Below are positions 721 through 63,086 of a stretch of DNA of 64,000 nt, in pieces (within the stretch, counting starts at the first letter, position 1; every line of letters begins with the position of its first letter). Below the pieces are notes generated by a model. The model made no database searches. It saw only the letters and a list, made by a program, of their open reading frames with translations, and was not told the origin of the DNA. Source of the DNA: Haloflavibacter putidus. GTDB taxonomy: Bacteria; Bacteroidota; Bacteroidia; Flavobacteriales; Flavobacteriaceae. Position numbers and translations under genes: made by a program. The stretch is from positions 124,001 to 188,000 of the forward strand of contig NZ_VIAR01000005.1 in NCBI RefSeq assembly GCF_006546625.1, given 5' to 3'.

Positions 721-2205
721 ATGCCAATAACCATAATGGGCGATCGGGAGTTTGAAAACGTTCCCTCCATAAAAAGTAAAACGCTTCGTATAAATTTGAA
801 TAAAAATATATACGGAACTTTTTCTGAAATTGGCGCGGGACAAGAAACCGTGAGAAATTTTTTTAGGGCCGGTGGCGCGTCCGGCACCATTGCTAAAACT
901 ATGAGCGCTTACGATAAAGATTTTAGCGATGCTATTTACGGCGAAGAAGAAGATAAACGCTATGTTACAGAAGCGCGTTTAAAAAAAATGCTCTCGCACG
1001 AAATGCAACTTATAGAAGAGCGCATAGAAAGAAAAAAACACCCTAATAAATTATTTTTTAGCTACGCCAATACCGTAGCAACCATAGATTTTTCTAAGAA
1101 ATATAAAGGCCACGGTTGGGTTGGCATACGCTACCAGGTAAGACCGGAAGAAGAATATAACGATATTATTTTGCATGTGCGTTTTCACGAAAACGATGCA
1201 CGTTTACAACAAAATACTTTAGGTATTTTGGGCGTAAATTTAATTTACGGCGCGTATTATAAATACGATACGCCTAAAAAATTACTACAATATCTTTACG
1301 ACCATATAGATAAAGACCAAATAGAAATAGATACCATAAACTTTAGCGGTCCGCGATTTGAAAATGTAGACAACCGCCTTATGAGTTTACAATTGGTAAA
1401 AAACGGGATGACAGAAGCCGTGATGTTTGCACCGGACGGTAATAATGTTTTACCGGCAAAAGTGCTTTATAAAAAAAATGTTTTAGCTTTACGCGGAAGT
1501 TTTAGACCGGTTACCAAAGTAAATATGGATATTTACAAAAACTCTTTAGAGTTGTTTTTGGAGGAAAACCGGGTAGAAAAAGACAATACTATTAGCGTTT
1601 TTGAAATTACTTTATCTAACCTACGTTCTGAAGGAGAAATAAACGAAAAAGATTTTATGGACCGTGCCAAACTGCTTTGCTCGTTGGGCCAAACGGTAAT
1701 GATTTCTAACTTTCAGCAATATTATAAAGTTGTAGAATATTTCTCTAATTATACCAAACAGCGTATGGGCTTGGCTATGGGTGTAAGCAACTTGATAGAT
1801 ATTTTTGACGAAAAATATTACCGTCATTTAAGCGGCGGGATTTTAGAAGCCTTTGGTAAATTGTTTTTTAAAGATTTAAAGGTTTATTTATATCCGCTAA
1901 AAGACAGAAGATCCGGCGAAATTACTACCAGCGAAAATCTACGCGTACATCCGCGAATGAAGGAGTTGTACAAATTTTTTAAATACAACGGAAAAGTTGT
2001 AGATATTAAAGATTACGACCCGGATATTCTGGATATTTACTCCAGAGAGATTTTAGATAAAATTCATTTAAAAGAAGAAGGTTGGGAAGATGCTTTACCA
2101 GCGCATACTGCTGCTATGATTAAAGAGCAAAACCTTTTTGGCTATGACGAAGATTCGTGTGAGTTAGAAACCCCGGAAGAAGATACCGTAGAAGTAAAGA
2201 ATTAA
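721..2205 (+). CDS. Conserved Bacteroidetes protein of unknown function
   Basis: This is a 494-residue soluble protein with no signal peptide or membrane segment. Residues 22-75 contain a strongly patterned block (NLNKNIYGTFSEIGAGQE, then FFRAGGASGTIAKTMSAYDK and FSDAIYG) that I recognise as recurrent in Bacteroidetes proteomes, often under unreliable product names. I cannot assign a function. The middle region is mixed alpha/beta and the C-terminus is acidic (about the last 25 residues). The start could be the ATG at 721 or the in-frame ATG at 736 (MGDREFENVP). The gene stands alone, with a promoter upstream and a bidirectional terminator between it and murA. Confidence 0.8.
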   Translation: MPITIMGDREFENVPSIKSKTLRINLNKNIYGTFSEIGAGQETVRNFFRAGGASGTIAKTMSAYDKDFSDAIYGEEEDKRYVTEARLKKMLSHEMQLIEERIERKKHPNKLFFSYANTVATIDFSKKYKGHGWVGIRYQVRPEEEYNDIILHVRFHENDARLQQNTLGILGVNLIYGAYYKYDTPKKLLQYLYDHIDKDQIEIDTINFSGPRFENVDNRLMSLQLVKNGMTEAVMFAPDGNNVLPAKVLYKKNVLALRGSFRPVTKVNMDIYKNSLELFLEENRVEKDNTISVFEITLSNLRSEGEINEKDFMDRAKLLCSLGQTVMISNFQQYYKVVEYFSNYTKQRMGLAMGVSNLIDIFDEKYYRHLSGGILEAFGKLFFKDLKVYLYPLKDRRSGEITTSENLRVHPRMKELYKFFKYNGKVVDIKDYDPDILDIYSREILDKIHLKEEGWEDALPAHTAAMIKEQNLFGYDEDSCELETPEEDTVEVKN

Positions 2206-2260
2206 TCTATTTTACCCGGTAAAAAAGCTTTTATCAAGCTATAAACAAGAAGTTATAATA

Positions 2261-2298
2261 TAAAAAAACCGTCTTTTTTAGCTAAAGACGGTTTTTTA
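2261..2298. terminator. Bidirectional intrinsic terminator between the 721-2205 gene and murA
   Basis: AAACCGTCTTT and AAAGACGGTTT form a stem around a short loop, with an A-run on the left and a T-run on the right. It therefore serves both converging genes. Confidence 0.8.
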
Positions 2299-2318
2299 AT
2301 TTTTCCGTAAAGCTACTA

Positions 2319-3632
2319 TTATTCTACGCGTTTTATTTTTGCGCCAATAGCTTGTAAACGTTCTTCAATATTTTCGTAACCACGGTCTATTTGTTCTATA
2401 TTATGAATTACAGAAGTTCCTTTTGCCGAAAGTGCCGCAATTAATAAAGAAACCCCTGCCCTAATATCCGGACTACTCATCGTAGTTGCTTTTAAGGTAG
2501 ATTTAAAATCGTGCCCGATAATAGTAGCACGATGCGGATCGCATAAAATTATTTTTGCGCCCATATCTATAAGTTTATCTACAAAAAACAACCTACTTTC
2601 AAACATTTTTTGATGAATAAGTACACTACCACGGGCTTGAGTAGCTACTACCAAAACTATACTTAGTAAATCTGGCGTAAAGCCCGGCCACGGAGAGTCG
2701 CTAATATTCATAATAGAACCGTCTATAAAACTTTGTACTTCATAGCCGTTGGTGTGTGCAGGAATATAAATATCGTCTCCTTTTCTTTCTAAAGTAATAC
2801 CTAATTTTCTAAAAGTTGTTGGTATTAATCCCAAATTATCCCAACTTACGTTTTTAATGGTAATTTCGCTTTGCGTCATTGCCGCCAAACCAATCCACGA
2901 GCCAATTTCTATCATATCTGGCAAAACCCGGTGTGCACATCCGTAAAGCTCTTTTACTCCATCTATATATAATAAATTAGAGCCAATGCCGCTTATTTTT
3001 GCCCCCATTGCATTAAGCATTTTACATAGTTGCTGAATATAAGGTTCGCAAGCTGCATTATAAATTGTAGTAGTACCTTTTGCTAACACGGCCGCCATAA
3101 TAATATTGGCGGTACCGGTGACAGATGCTTCTTCTAAAAGCATGTATTTTCCGATAAGTCCGTTTGGTGCTTCTACGCCATAAAAGCGTTCTTCTTTATT
3201 GTAGTTAAAAGTTGCGCCTAATTTTATAAATCCTTCAAAATGGGTATCTAATCTTCTTCTGCCAATTTTGTCGCCACCGGGTCTGGGTATATAACCTTTT
3301 CCAAATCTGGCCAACAGAGGTCCAACAATCATAATAGAACCGCGTAAGCCGCTGCCTTCTTGCTTAAACAAATCTGAAGTGAGGTAATCTATGTCTAACT
3401 CGTCACTTTTAAAAGTATAGCTACCTTTTTCTATTTTATTGATTTTTACCCCAAGATTTTTTAGGATTCCCATCAATTTATTTACATCCCTAATATCTGG
3501 AATGTTATCTATTCTCACTTCTTGCGGAGTTAGCAAAACTGCACATAAAACTTGCAGTGCCTCATTTTTTGCACCTTGTGGCGATATTTCCCCTTTTAAG
3601 GAACGGCCACCTTCTATTTGAAAAATTGCCAT
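2319..3632 (-). CDS. murA: UDP-N-acetylglucosamine 1-carboxyvinyltransferase
   Basis: This 437-residue enolpyruvyl transferase catalyses the first committed step of peptidoglycan synthesis, moving enolpyruvate from PEP to UDP-GlcNAc in the cytoplasm. Family marks include QGAKNEALQ (residues 19-27; the Lys-Asn pair binds substrate), RGSIMIVGPLLARFG and RPGGDKIGRRRLDTHF. In the last segment the loop residue that is Cys115 in E. coli is Asp (D121, codon GAC at 3270-3272). This substitution is known from fosfomycin-insensitive MurA enzymes. Length is near the family norm. The gene lies 14 bp downstream of the DUF4290 gene and is probably co-transcribed with it. Confidence 0.97.
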   Translation of the reverse strand: MAIFQIEGGRSLKGEISPQGAKNEALQVLCAVLLTPQEVRIDNIPDIRDVNKLMGILKNLGVKINKIEKGSYTFKSDELDIDYLTSDLFKQEGSGLRGSIMIVGPLLARFGKGYIPRPGGDKIGRRRLDTHFEGFIKLGATFNYNKEERFYGVEAPNGLIGKYMLLEEASVTGTANIIMAAVLAKGTTTIYNAACEPYIQQLCKMLNAMGAKISGIGSNLLYIDGVKELYGCAHRVLPDMIEIGSWIGLAAMTQSEITIKNVSWDNLGLIPTTFRKLGITLERKGDDIYIPAHTNGYEVQSFIDGSIMNISDSPWPGFTPDLLSIVLVVATQARGSVLIHQKMFESRLFFVDKLIDMGAKIILCDPHRATIIGHDFKSTLKATTMSSPDIRAGVSLLIAALSAKGTSVIHNIEQIDRGYENIEERLQAIGAKIKRVE

Positions 3633-3646
3633 TTATTTTGGGTAGA

Positions 3647-4282
3647 TTAATAGCGTTTACGACCACGATTGCGGTGGTTGTTAGTCTTTTTTGTAGGTTT
3701 TCTTTTCTTGGTATTTCGTACCAAGTCTGATGCTTGGGTTAGATCTTCTTCTTTTTTACGCAAGTTAATTGCGCCATCACTCAACTCATACAAATGATCA
3801 AAAATCATTTTATCTTCTACCGTATCTTTGTTCCAATTAAGGTAACACTTTTTCATATGGTTAGCAATGGTAAAGATAAGCGCTTCTTTTAAATCTCCCT
3901 CATCCCATTTCTTTGCTTCATCTATCATCCTTTTAATATTATTTCCGTAAAAACGGTATTTAGGATGGTTTTGTGGGTATTCTAAAGGAGACGGAGATTC
4001 TTGTAATTTCTCTTTGGAAGGTTTAGGGTAAGGTGAATCTACCTCTAATTTAAAATCGCTTATAATAAAAAGTTGGTCCCAAAGCTTATGCTGAAAGTCT
4101 GGTACATCGCGTAAATGCGGATTCAAATTTCCCATTACCGCAATAATAGACTTTGCTACTTCGTTGCGCTCTTTATCGTCTTCAATGCTAACGGCGTGCT
4201 CTACCATTTTTTGAATATGTCTGCCATATTCTGGAATAATGAGTTTACTCCGTTCTGAATTGTATTCTAAATCGTATATCAA
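3647..4282 (-). CDS. DUF4290 domain-containing protein
   Basis: This 211-residue cytoplasmic protein is typical of Bacteroidetes. The N-terminal 170 residues match the pattern I know as DUF4290 (MIYDLEYNSERSKLIIPEYG, then NPHLRDVPDFQHKLWDQLF). The last 35 residues are highly basic (KKRKPTKKTNNHRNRGRKRY) and could contact nucleic acid; that is inference. It precedes murA by 14 bp on the same strand, an arrangement that suggests an operon. No function is established. Confidence 0.85.
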   Translation of the reverse strand: MIYDLEYNSERSKLIIPEYGRHIQKMVEHAVSIEDDKERNEVAKSIIAVMGNLNPHLRDVPDFQHKLWDQLFIISDFKLEVDSPYPKPSKEKLQESPSPLEYPQNHPKYRFYGNNIKRMIDEAKKWDEGDLKEALIFTIANHMKKCYLNWNKDTVEDKMIFDHLYELSDGAINLRKKEEDLTQASDLVRNTKKRKPTKKTNNHRNRGRKRY

Positions 4283-61189: not shown

Positions 61190-61573
61190 TTAAGCAAAAT
61201 TCATAAAACTAATTAATAAAAGTAACCATCCTATCACAAGTAACAAACCACCAATTGGCGTAACAGGTCCCAAAAACCGAACGTTTTTTCCTTTACTTCC
61301 AAAAAACGTTAACCCGTAAATGCTAAAAGAAAAAAAGCAAACCCCAATAATTATTAGTCCGCCGGCCCATTGGTGCAAATTATTGATAAAGGATAGATTA
61401 AAGCCCATTATTAATAACAATAAAGCGTGATACATTTGGTACTTTACGCCGGTTTCAAAACTATTTAATTGGTCTGTAGTAAAACTTTTCTTTAAGGCGT
61501 GCGCACCAAAAGCACCTAAAATAATGGCAAACATTCCTAAAAAACAACCTGCTATTAAAACTAAGTTTTGCAT
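61190..61573 (-). CDS. DUF423 membrane protein
   Basis: A 127-residue protein with four hydrophobic helices and the family pattern FAIILGAFGAHALKKSF, FETGVKYQMYHALLLLIMG and FFGSKGKNVRFLGPVTPIGGLLLVIGW. Function unknown (YgdD-like). It is divergent from satD across the operator array and probably co-transcribed with the DoxX gene. Confidence 0.92.
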   Translation of the reverse strand: MQNLVLIAGCFLGMFAIILGAFGAHALKKSFTTDQLNSFETGVKYQMYHALLLLIMGFNLSFINNLHQWAGGLIIIGVCFFSFSIYGLTFFGSKGKNVRFLGPVTPIGGLLLVIGWLLLLISFMNFA

Positions 61574-61641
61574 TTTTTTCAGTAAAAATAAGATTTTCTA
61601 CACCACTTATATAAAATTTTGAAAATAATAAAAAACCATTC

Positions 61642-61747
61642 TATCGTGCGTCAACACGACAATAACCATATATCGTACAATAACACGATAACCACTATAT
61701 ATCGTATATTTAAACGATATTTTGAAATATCGTATTTTATCACGATA
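61642..61747. promoter_or_regulatory. Array of four 20-bp operator-like inverted repeats before satD
   Basis: TATCGTR-N6-YACGATA occurs at 61642-61661, 61671-61690, 61700-61719 and 61728-61747 (site 1 ends CACGACA; site 3 starts its right half with AACGATA). Starts are 29, 29 and 28 bp apart. The array fills the DUF423-satD gap and ends 7 bp before the satD ATG. Confidence 0.9.
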
Positions 61748-61754
61748 TTTGATT

Positions 61755-62375
61755 ATGCTTGCAGTTTTAACCGGCGATATTATTTTTTCGAAGCAAGTGG
61801 CAGACGCCACCACTTATTTACATACATTAGAAAAAGTTTTAAAACACTTACGTACGGAATCAAAATACCGCGAGATCTACCGCGGCGATAGTTTTCAAAT
61901 AGAAATAGAAAATCCGGCTTTAGCTTTTTATAGCGCAATGTGCATTAAAGCTGCTCTAAAACAAATTAAACCTTTAGACGTTCGTATTGCCATAGGTTTT
62001 GGAGAAAAAACCCATACAGCCAAAAAAGTAAGCCAATCTAACGGCAGCGCATTTATACGCTCAGGAGAGTTGTTTGAAACTCTAGAAAATAGTTTAAAAC
62101 AAAACTTAGCCATAAAAAGCGACAATACTATTCTAGATACAGAAATTAACACCTATATTAATTTGGCTTTAATAGCCATGAATGCGTGGACGCCCGGCGC
62201 CGCAGAAATTGTATATTTAAGTTTACTTCATCCTACCAAAAGCCAAAGTGAATTGGGTAGACTAATTAACATAAAGCAAAACACGGTAAGCGAGCGTTTA
62301 AAACGCGCTTATTTTGAAGAATTACAACAATTTGATAAGATTTTTCGTCAAAAAATAACCAACGAAATGCTTTAA
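61755..62375 (+). CDS. satD: SatD family protein with C-terminal helix-turn-helix
   Basis: A 206-residue protein. The N-terminal domain opens MLAVLTGDIIFSKQVAD, the known SatD start, and continues with YRGDSFQIEIENP and VRIAIGFGEK, reminiscent of a cyclase-like alpha/beta fold. The C-terminal 50 residues (KSQSELGRLINIKQNTVSERLKRAYFEEL) form a clear helix-turn-helix. An ATG at 61722 is in frame but lies inside the operator array, so 61755 is chosen. It overlaps no gene and is followed after 3 bp by DUF3307. It may bind the four operators itself; that is inference. Confidence 0.88.
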   Translation: MLAVLTGDIIFSKQVADATTYLHTLEKVLKHLRTESKYREIYRGDSFQIEIENPALAFYSAMCIKAALKQIKPLDVRIAIGFGEKTHTAKKVSQSNGSAFIRSGELFETLENSLKQNLAIKSDNTILDTEINTYINLALIAMNAWTPGAAEIVYLSLLHPTKSQSELGRLINIKQNTVSERLKRAYFEELQQFDKIFRQKITNEML

Positions 62376-62378
62376 TTT

Positions 62379-63086
62379 ATGCTCTTGTTTCTTAAACTTT
62401 TATTGGCACATTTACTAGGCGATTTTCTTTTGCAACCGTTTAGTTGGGTAAAAGATAAAGACCAAAAAAAAGTAGCTTCCGGCAAACTTTACTTGCATAT
62501 TTTAATTCATTTCTTGCTCGCATTTCTATTTTTATGGGATTTAAGTTTATGGTATATTCCGTTAATTATTGCCCTATCGCATTATGCAATAGATCTCGCC
62601 AAACTCTATTTACAAACCCAAAAAACCAAGCGTTTATGGTTTTTTACTGACCAGTTTTTCCATATTCTGATAATTCTAATCATAAGTATTGCCTCTCTAG
62701 GCTGGAAAAACCTACCCGTTTTACCAGATAGCATTTGGGTATATTTAACCGGCCTATTTTTGGTTACTTTTCCGGCTTCTATTTCTATAAAAACACTTAT
62801 TTCTGTCTATTCTCCAAAAACCGAATTAAAAAAGGACGAAAGTTTAGATAAAGCCGGTAGTTATATTGGAATTTTAGAACGTGTTTTGGTGTTTGTTTTT
62901 ATAGTTACCAACCATTGGGAAGGCGTCGGTTTTTTAATCGCTGCCAAATCTATTTTCCGCTTTAGCGACCTAACGCAATCTAAAGACCGCAAACTAACAG
63001 AATATATTTTAATTGGAACTTTGGTAAGTTTTAGTTATGCTATTTTCTCTGCCTTGGCGTGTATTTTTATTCTTACTTATATTTAG
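62379..63086 (+). CDS. DUF3307 membrane protein
   Basis: A 235-residue protein with about seven hydrophobic segments. It opens LLLAHLLGDFLLQPFSWVKDKDQKK, the DUF3307 signature, then ALSHYAIDLAKLYL and FFTDQFFHILII, which keep conserved His and Asp residues in membrane helices. DUF3307 genes commonly follow satD. Function unknown; the pair looks like a regulator plus membrane effector. Confidence 0.9.
   Translation: MLLFLKLLLAHLLGDFLLQPFSWVKDKDQKKVASGKLYLHILIHFLLAFLFLWDLSLWYIPLIIALSHYAIDLAKLYLQTQKTKRLWFFTDQFFHILIILIISIASLGWKNLPVLPDSIWVYLTGLFLVTFPASISIKTLISVYSPKTELKKDESLDKAGSYIGILERVLVFVFIVTNHWEGVGFLIAAKSIFRFSDLTQSKDRKLTEYILIGTLVSFSYAIFSALACIFILTYI

Follow-up and report, generated by a model that had tools for sequence, protein, structure and literature searches.

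Genes and palindromes at the satD locus

The window, by which we mean the whole 64,000-nucleotide stretch of the Haloflavibacter putidus genome that was analysed, carries four palindromes of the form TATCGT-N8-ACGATA at 61642-61747, directly 5' of satD. The sequence-only reading of the window had described them as four identical operators with the consensus TATCGTR-N6-YACGATA. The features of the locus are as follows.

61190-61573, minus strand: DUF423 gene, divergent from satD and probably not the conserved target
61642-61661, no strand: predicted operator palindrome 1, TATCGTG CGTCAA CACGACA, right arm with one mismatch
61671-61690, no strand: predicted operator palindrome 2, TATCGTA CAATAA CACGATA, equal to the consensus
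61700-61719, no strand: predicted operator palindrome 3, TATCGTA TATTTA AACGATA, perfect 6-bp arms, inner base A and not Y
61728-61747, no strand: predicted operator palindrome 4, TATCGTA TTTTAT CACGATA, equal to the consensus
61755-62375, plus strand: satD, 206 aa, with an N-terminal cyclase/palm-like domain and a C-terminal helix-turn-helix (HTH), predicted recognition helix at residues 175-184
62379-63086, plus strand: DUF3307 gene, second in the presumed operon, for a probable membrane protein of 235 aa that is predicted to be all-helical

The palindromes start 29, 29 and 28 bp apart, a gap of 7 bp separates the fourth from the satD ATG (61755), and one of 68 bp separates the first from the DUF423 start. 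The number and positions given by the sequence-only reading are correct, as are its near-29-bp register and the reach of the array to 7 bp before satD. The identity is not: sites 2 and 4 match the consensus exactly, whereas sites 1 and 3 carry one mismatch each, and the inner base is unpaired in three of the four palindromes. The spacers and inter-site stretches had been called unrelated, and they do differ from one another while the half-sites are kept.

Perfect copies of TATCGT-N8-ACGATA occur exactly three times in the assembly (2,923,547 bases in 53 contigs), all of them within the array. Sites with one mismatch number eight; one is the remaining array site and the other seven are scattered. 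At one mismatch or fewer the pattern is found 11 times assembly-wide and a reversed control 15 times, so the genome-wide number of near matches is not unusual. What is unusual about the array is the perfection and clustering of its sites. In the window alone, allowing up to three mismatches gave 8 matches against 5.7 expected, which is not significant (21 of 100 shuffles reach 8). We do not claim a SatD regulon, because the pattern is at most as frequent as its reversed control and its one-mismatch sites outside the array show no clustering.

The window SatD scores 31.7 bits against the Pfam SatD family (PF16264), above the cut-off of 29, and all 30 members of our SatD alignment match that family at E ≤ 0.1. 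An NCBIfam sigma70-ECF model also matches the window protein (E 8.8e-6), but its 25.4 bits are below the cut-off of 42.9. An AlphaFold model from 30 SatD sequences (mean pLDDT 97) has an alpha/beta N-domain and a helical C-terminus, and the C-terminal HTH that had been noticed from the letters is present in it at residues 164-184. Its matches to sigma-70 region 4 and to further families of HTH are weak; Sigma70_r4 is matched at E ≤ 0.1 by 21 of the 30 members. A PDB sequence search with the SatD profile returned mostly HTH or other DNA-binding proteins (best E 0.035).

By fold, the N-domain resembles class III nucleotidyl cyclases, GGDEF domains, Cas10 palm domains and GTP cyclohydrolase III. 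The 50 VIA rows shown span Z 8.4-9.6 over 110-140 aligned residues, and the best Foldseek match, adenylyl cyclase Ma1120, has E 1.4e-3, with no match at E ≤ 0.001. Unlike these cyclase and palm proteins, SatD is fused to an HTH, and its sequence identity to them is only about 9-20% in the rows listed. D8 is present in 221 and D45 in 222 of 223 SatD sequences; these may correspond to the pair of aspartates that bind metal in class III cyclases.

The DUF3307 gene begins 3 bp after the satD stop codon. The model of its product (mean pLDDT 93.7) contains helices only by DSSP, and fold searches gave no Foldseek match under E 3.3 and a best VIA Z of 6.7, none of them convincing. PHROG 2470, a membrane protein in the category 'moron, auxiliary metabolic gene and host takeover', matches the window DUF3307 at E 6e-12. 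The C-terminal half of DUF3307 is highly conserved, with 13 invariant columns in 40 sequences, all between G160 and S217.

Palindrome arrays before satD in other Bacteroidota

SatD relatives were matched in 43 of 149 genomes of the family, 139 of 395 of the order and 100 of 395 of the phylum, in sets that overlap. From a scan of named genomes the best 80 of at least 550 loci were used, and 80 further stretches, taken by coordinates, were hand-picked for diversity. The 235 SatD loci reduced to 223 distinct upstream regions when those with an identical last 150 bp, or with less than 120 bp upstream, were dropped.

Many Bacteroidota carry 20-bp palindromes 28 or 29 bp apart upstream of satD, usually three or four of them, with a word that differs by lineage and an architecture that stays the same. 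A search for the same half-sites before satD in other members of the phylum had been proposed in the sequence-only reading; the architecture recurs there, and the word varies. satD therefore has palindromic sites before its own gene that are conserved among its relatives, as a self-operator would.

In an unanchored scan, 97 of 132 distinct upstreams and none of 132 dinucleotide shuffles reached a palindrome-array score of at least 20. In a scan with the arms anchored on TAT, where bases 1-3 are fixed and so are no independent evidence, a score of at least 21 was reached by 119 of 223 upstreams and by none of 223 mononucleotide shuffles, and a score of at least 12 by 187 upstreams and 10 shuffles. 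Native control segments (n = 4478) scored at least 12 in 73 cases and at least 21 in three; two of these three lie in a 54-bp-periodic repeat of locus L213 and the other is the satD-DUF3307 array of L194. The repeat of L213 occupies the first 850 bases of the satD-sense strand, upstream of satD.

The 119 upstreams scoring at least 21, which we call strong arrays, mostly hold three sites (75) or four (35), with two in 5 and five in 4. The commonest cores (bases 4-6) among them are TAC (28), AAG (21), TCC (14) and CGT (11), followed by CGG (9), TAG (7), CAC (7) and CTG (5). A DUF3307-like ORF follows satD in 118 of the 119 strong-array loci and in 215 of all 223. By a longest-ORF estimate, the neighbour upstream of the strong arrays is co-directional in 71, divergent in 45 and uncalled in 3. 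The closest named locus, among the best 80 of at least 550, is from an uncultured Mesonia (L065), whose SatD is 92% identical to that of the window; it keeps four sites with altered spacers.

The spacing is almost invariant. Within the strong arrays, 210 of the 276 intervals are 28 bp and 57 are 29 bp, together 267. Within a single palindrome, 11 bp separate the two specificity cores, which by arithmetic is about one turn, as expected for an ordinary HTH dimer. At 10.5 bp per turn, the 28-29 bp from one palindrome to the next amount to 2.67-2.76 turns, which puts neighbours on different faces: successive sites are about 90-120 degrees apart, and three 28-bp steps make eight turns. The regular phasing had been thought to place the sites on one DNA face for cooperative binding; the spacing contradicts this, and we reject same-face cooperativity.

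Upstreams with an anchored score below 12 number 36; 13 of these score at least 17 in an unanchored scan with other words, a setting for which the null is uncalibrated. In L192 and L194 the satD upstream is without an array, and two palindromes 29 bp apart lie in the gap between satD and DUF3307 instead (at about 1872-1920 in L194). In L120 and L140 the array is 230-300 bp before satD. This TATTAC-type array stands farther from satD than in related Flavobacterium, as if sequence had been inserted. L181 has a TATAAGC-type array at 680-865 of the satD-sense strand, beyond the 320 bases set aside before satD. After all scans a clear array was absent from 19 of the 223 upstreams; five of these are above 45% G+C, and seven come from close relatives that score more than 230 bits with the SatD profile.

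Covariation between the SatD recognition helix and the half-site

For the 119 strong-array sequences (effective number 69), redundancy-weighted mutual information was calculated for every pairing of a SatD column, of which there are 206, with a half-site base. Residue 180 has the highest value for all three core bases: 1.17 bits for base 4, 1.25 for base 5 and 1.05 for base 6, with A18 (0.72), V28 (0.81) and N176 (0.80) as the respective runners-up. Ranked by permutation z, residue 180 leads at bases 4 and 5 and comes narrowly after residue 176 at base 6; residues 176 and 177 also stand out at bases 4 and 5. All three residues belong to helix 175-184, the predicted recognition helix. The top columns listed for base 7, which is not part of the core, include none from that helix.

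The pairings are specific. E or D at residue 180 occurs with C at base 4 in 23 of 23 cases, and R180 with T at base 4 in 29 of 29; D or E at 176 goes with C at base 6 (12 of 12) and T177 with G at base 5 (9 of 10). At residue 180, the classes K, Q, T, G, H and A each occur with more than one base at position 4. The window SatD fits this code, having N176, T177 and E180 together with C, G and T at bases 4-6.

The helix residues also predict the core among distant relatives. For pairs of proteins at 20-50% N-domain identity, the three-base core is the same in 36 of 45 pairs with identical residues 176/177/180, in 122 of 351 with one residue differing, in 71 of 2234 with two and in 35 of 2326 with three. 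When the core was predicted from the nearest neighbour by residues 176/177/180 or from the nearest neighbour by N-domain, the results at four identity cuts were 0.32 against 0.10, 0.37 against 0.09 (the cut below 50% identity), 0.66 against 0.36, and 0.67 against 0.56. For comparison, 300 random triples of N-domain columns used as predictors gave a mean of 0.06 and a maximum of 0.22. By computation, then, the recognition helix is predicted to specify the site, another mark of a self-operator.

SatD itself very probably reads the array, because the operator bases covary with recognition-helix residues 176, 177 and 180. The binding of SatD to its own upstream array, put forward from the window alone, thus gains strong computational support. 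It could be supposed that another regulator binds the array and that the correlation with SatD stems from shared ancestry only. Joint inheritance of SatD and the array would by itself produce some correlation; there is signal in N-domain columns as well (A18 for base 4, V28 for base 5), and at the strictest cut, with 13-17 representatives below 45% identity, residue 180 was top in only 10 of 30 draws, with a median rank of 3. Against this stand the first rank of residue 180 among all columns, its top position in 25 of 30 draws of 20-24 representatives below 50% identity, and the advantage of the helix-residue neighbour over the N-domain neighbour at every one of the four cuts. Shared ancestry is an unlikely cause of the covariation, and a different regulator at these sites is very improbable. 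That the palindromes are hairpins of a leader RNA, forming a riboregulator or attenuator and not DNA operators, is scarcely credible. RNA can form hairpins at inverted repeats, and where lineages differ in one arm the other arm has changed to match, yet each array uses one word at a spacing fixed at 28 or 29 bp, the word tracks the SatD recognition helix, and the inner base fails to pair in most of the window sites. An Rfam search of 61400-62000 returned one match, far under its gathering score, and together with the covariation this led us to reject the RNA-element reading.

Autoregulated HTH repressors with operators beside their own genes are a general class. Like them, SatD has palindromes before its own operon and recognition-helix residues that covary with half-site bases; unlike them, it has arrays that keep a 28/29-bp register while the word changes, most of them with three or four sites. 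An autoregulatory operator system is thus of an already known kind. What would be new is an operator for a family without one described in the open-licence literature searched, and a geometry that stays fixed while the word is rewired. Covariation between factor and site is reported for the GntR, IclR and MerR families (PMC4494728, PMC8222616, PMC5045206). SatD differs from these in being a separate family with a cyclase/palm-like partner domain.

Pfam PF16264 takes its name from a Streptococcus mutans secretion and acid tolerance gene. Excerpts of the satD literature deal with acid tolerance, essentiality, abundance, regulation as an sRNA target and the lysozyme response. A table labels satD of Streptococcus suis 'DNA-binding protein', without a test in that passage (PMC12005413). 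In a pangenome study using transposon data, satD of Streptococcus pyogenes is reported to be essential although it is an accessory gene (178 of 249 genomes; PMC11323703). The excerpts found in open-licence literature hold no description of a SatD operator or of SatD DNA binding, a weak absence that agrees with the sequence-only reading, which knew of no published operator for SatD/DUF3307.

Probable direction of regulation and setting of satD-DUF3307

The motif TAnnTTTG, which we take to be the Bacteroidota -7 box, occurs in 77 of the 119 strong-array upstreams and in 15 of 119 shuffled ones. Its commonest start is 2 bases before an operator end (49 occurrences). Taking offsets of two or four bases, a box stands at the operator end in 24 of 119 last sites, 23 of 119 next-to-last sites, 12 of 114 third sites and 2 of 39 fourth sites. 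In the window the corresponding feature is as follows.

61744-61751, plus strand: candidate -7 box, GATATTTG, one mismatch to the assumed consensus TAnnTTTG, overlapping the end of palindrome 4

Other matches with one mismatch are at 61614, 61705 (inside palindrome 3) and 61754. The window holds no exact TAnnTTTG box, and since its matches all have one mismatch, its own promoter is not fixed by them.

Across the relatives, the overlap of -7 boxes with operator ends points to promoter occlusion and so to negative autoregulation, which is the likely mechanism for satD-DUF3307. The likely direction, repression, rests on this overlap and on the box consensus as we presume it to be. The sequence-only reading had suggested that SatD may repress itself. 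Its first half, binding of SatD to its own array, is the part that covariation predicts; repression is likely, from the promoter boxes. The position of the array before DUF3307 in L192 and L194 suggests that DUF3307 is the target that matters.

The binding evidence is itself neutral on direction, and SatD might act at the array as an activator, or as a ligand-dependent switch between activation and repression. Sensor-like N-domains joined to an HTH are known in activators and repressors alike, and the outer sites of the arrays are well upstream of the -7 boxes. The boxes nevertheless overlap operator ends most often at the last and next-to-last sites, which favours occlusion, and we regard an activator or switch as rather improbable. 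The array might also control the divergent DUF423 gene, as the sequence-only reading had raised, and this would be compatible with self-repression. The distance from the DUF423 start to the first site, 68 bp in the window, speaks for it. Among the strong-array loci, however, the upstream neighbour is more often co-directional, the next gene is almost always a DUF3307-like ORF, and the array accompanies satD, or DUF3307 in two loci. Control of DUF423 as the point of the array is unsupported, and we give it very little credence, though in this one genome the array may act on DUF423 too.

The explanation that we prefer, and hold as a whole to be probable with good confidence, is that the array is a SatD self-operator that represses satD-DUF3307 and is tuned by a nucleotide. 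The array, its wide occurrence, its fixed geometry, the covariation of its word with the helix and the adjacency of DUF3307 are established by computation. A SatD dimer would put the recognition helices of its two C-terminal HTHs into the half-sites of one 20-bp palindrome. The next dimers would sit 28 or 29 bp on, at a rotation of roughly one quarter to one third of a turn, which would make the occupied sites wind around the DNA. Bound SatD would cover the -7 region of the satD-DUF3307 promoter and repress the operon, whose two genes are presumably co-transcribed, and this negative autoregulation would keep the level of SatD and DUF3307 low. The cyclase/palm-like N-domain, with its two near-invariant aspartates, would bind, and perhaps make, a nucleotide; judging from the modelled fold, that nucleotide may set the strength of SatD repression.

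If the self-operator reading is right, a family without a known molecular role becomes a testable sequence-specific regulator and gives a way into the role of satD-DUF3307, a widespread pair. Control of DNA binding by a cyclase-like domain also becomes directly testable. The arrays would amount to a table, supplied by nature in one conserved geometry, of which recognition-helix residues go with which DNA words, and this would help to decode HTH specificity. Because the geometry is constant while the word drifts, the family would offer a clean natural experiment in the coevolution of repressor and operator.

A broader reading, which we put forward tentatively and think unlikely, is that SatD-DUF3307 is a partly mobile conflict or stress module in which a nucleotide signal for DUF3307, made or sensed by the palm domain, and repression by the HTH through a freely rewiring self-operator array doubly restrain a harmful DUF3307. 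Loss of SatD or of its nucleotide would then release DUF3307. Hints in this direction come from the near-invariance of D8 and D45, the tight pairing of satD with DUF3307, the displaced array before the DUF3307 gene in two loci, the essential yet accessory status of satD in S. pyogenes, the cargo of plasmid pEC34A and a neighbour from the Pycsar effector family in Sphingomonas, the last two described below. Panoptes pairs mCpol/OptS with the membrane effector OptE, which has two TM helices and a beta-barrel domain (PMC12657218, PMC12657230); its synthase holds a membrane toxin in check by means of a cyclic nucleotide. satD-DUF3307 shares the two-gene layout, with a small palm-fold protein first and a membrane protein second. 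Unlike Panoptes, SatD has an HTH, and DUF3307 is unlike OptE, since its model is all helical without the OptE beta-barrel and has no convincing solved relative. The comparisons leave room for a Panoptes-like logic, with the first protein holding a harmful membrane partner in check, but do not demonstrate it. In PADLOC, SatD had a single weak match, to Csa3 (E 0.017), and DUF3307 had none; we make no claim of membership in a defence system.

A peptide-pattern scan of viral contigs found no relative of the window DUF3307, an alignment search of viral contigs with SatD matched three, and a phage collection held no SatD at E 0.01; a Ralstonia jumbo phage is reported to carry a DUF3307 ORF. On proteobacterial plasmids of Salinivibrio, Sphingomonas, E. 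coli and Pseudomonas, SatD-like and DUF3307 genes are annotated side by side, some with weak SatD matches (54% of the query at E 2e-3 in E. coli; E 3e-3 in Pseudomonas). Of the seven plasmid loci searched, three (L243, L245 and L246) have pairs of 28-bp direct repeats in the upstream sequence. On a Sphingomonas insulae plasmid (L247), SatD-like and DUF3307 genes at 1854-3943 are followed by an opposite-strand gene whose annotation is Pycsar system effector family protein. In the 3.77-kb E. coli plasmid pEC34A (L248, NC_019077.1) a weak SatD-like gene and DUF3307, at 1792-3481, are the main cargo, beside Rop and MobA, and four Klebsiella plasmids of the same length as pEC34A are listed with the same SatD match.
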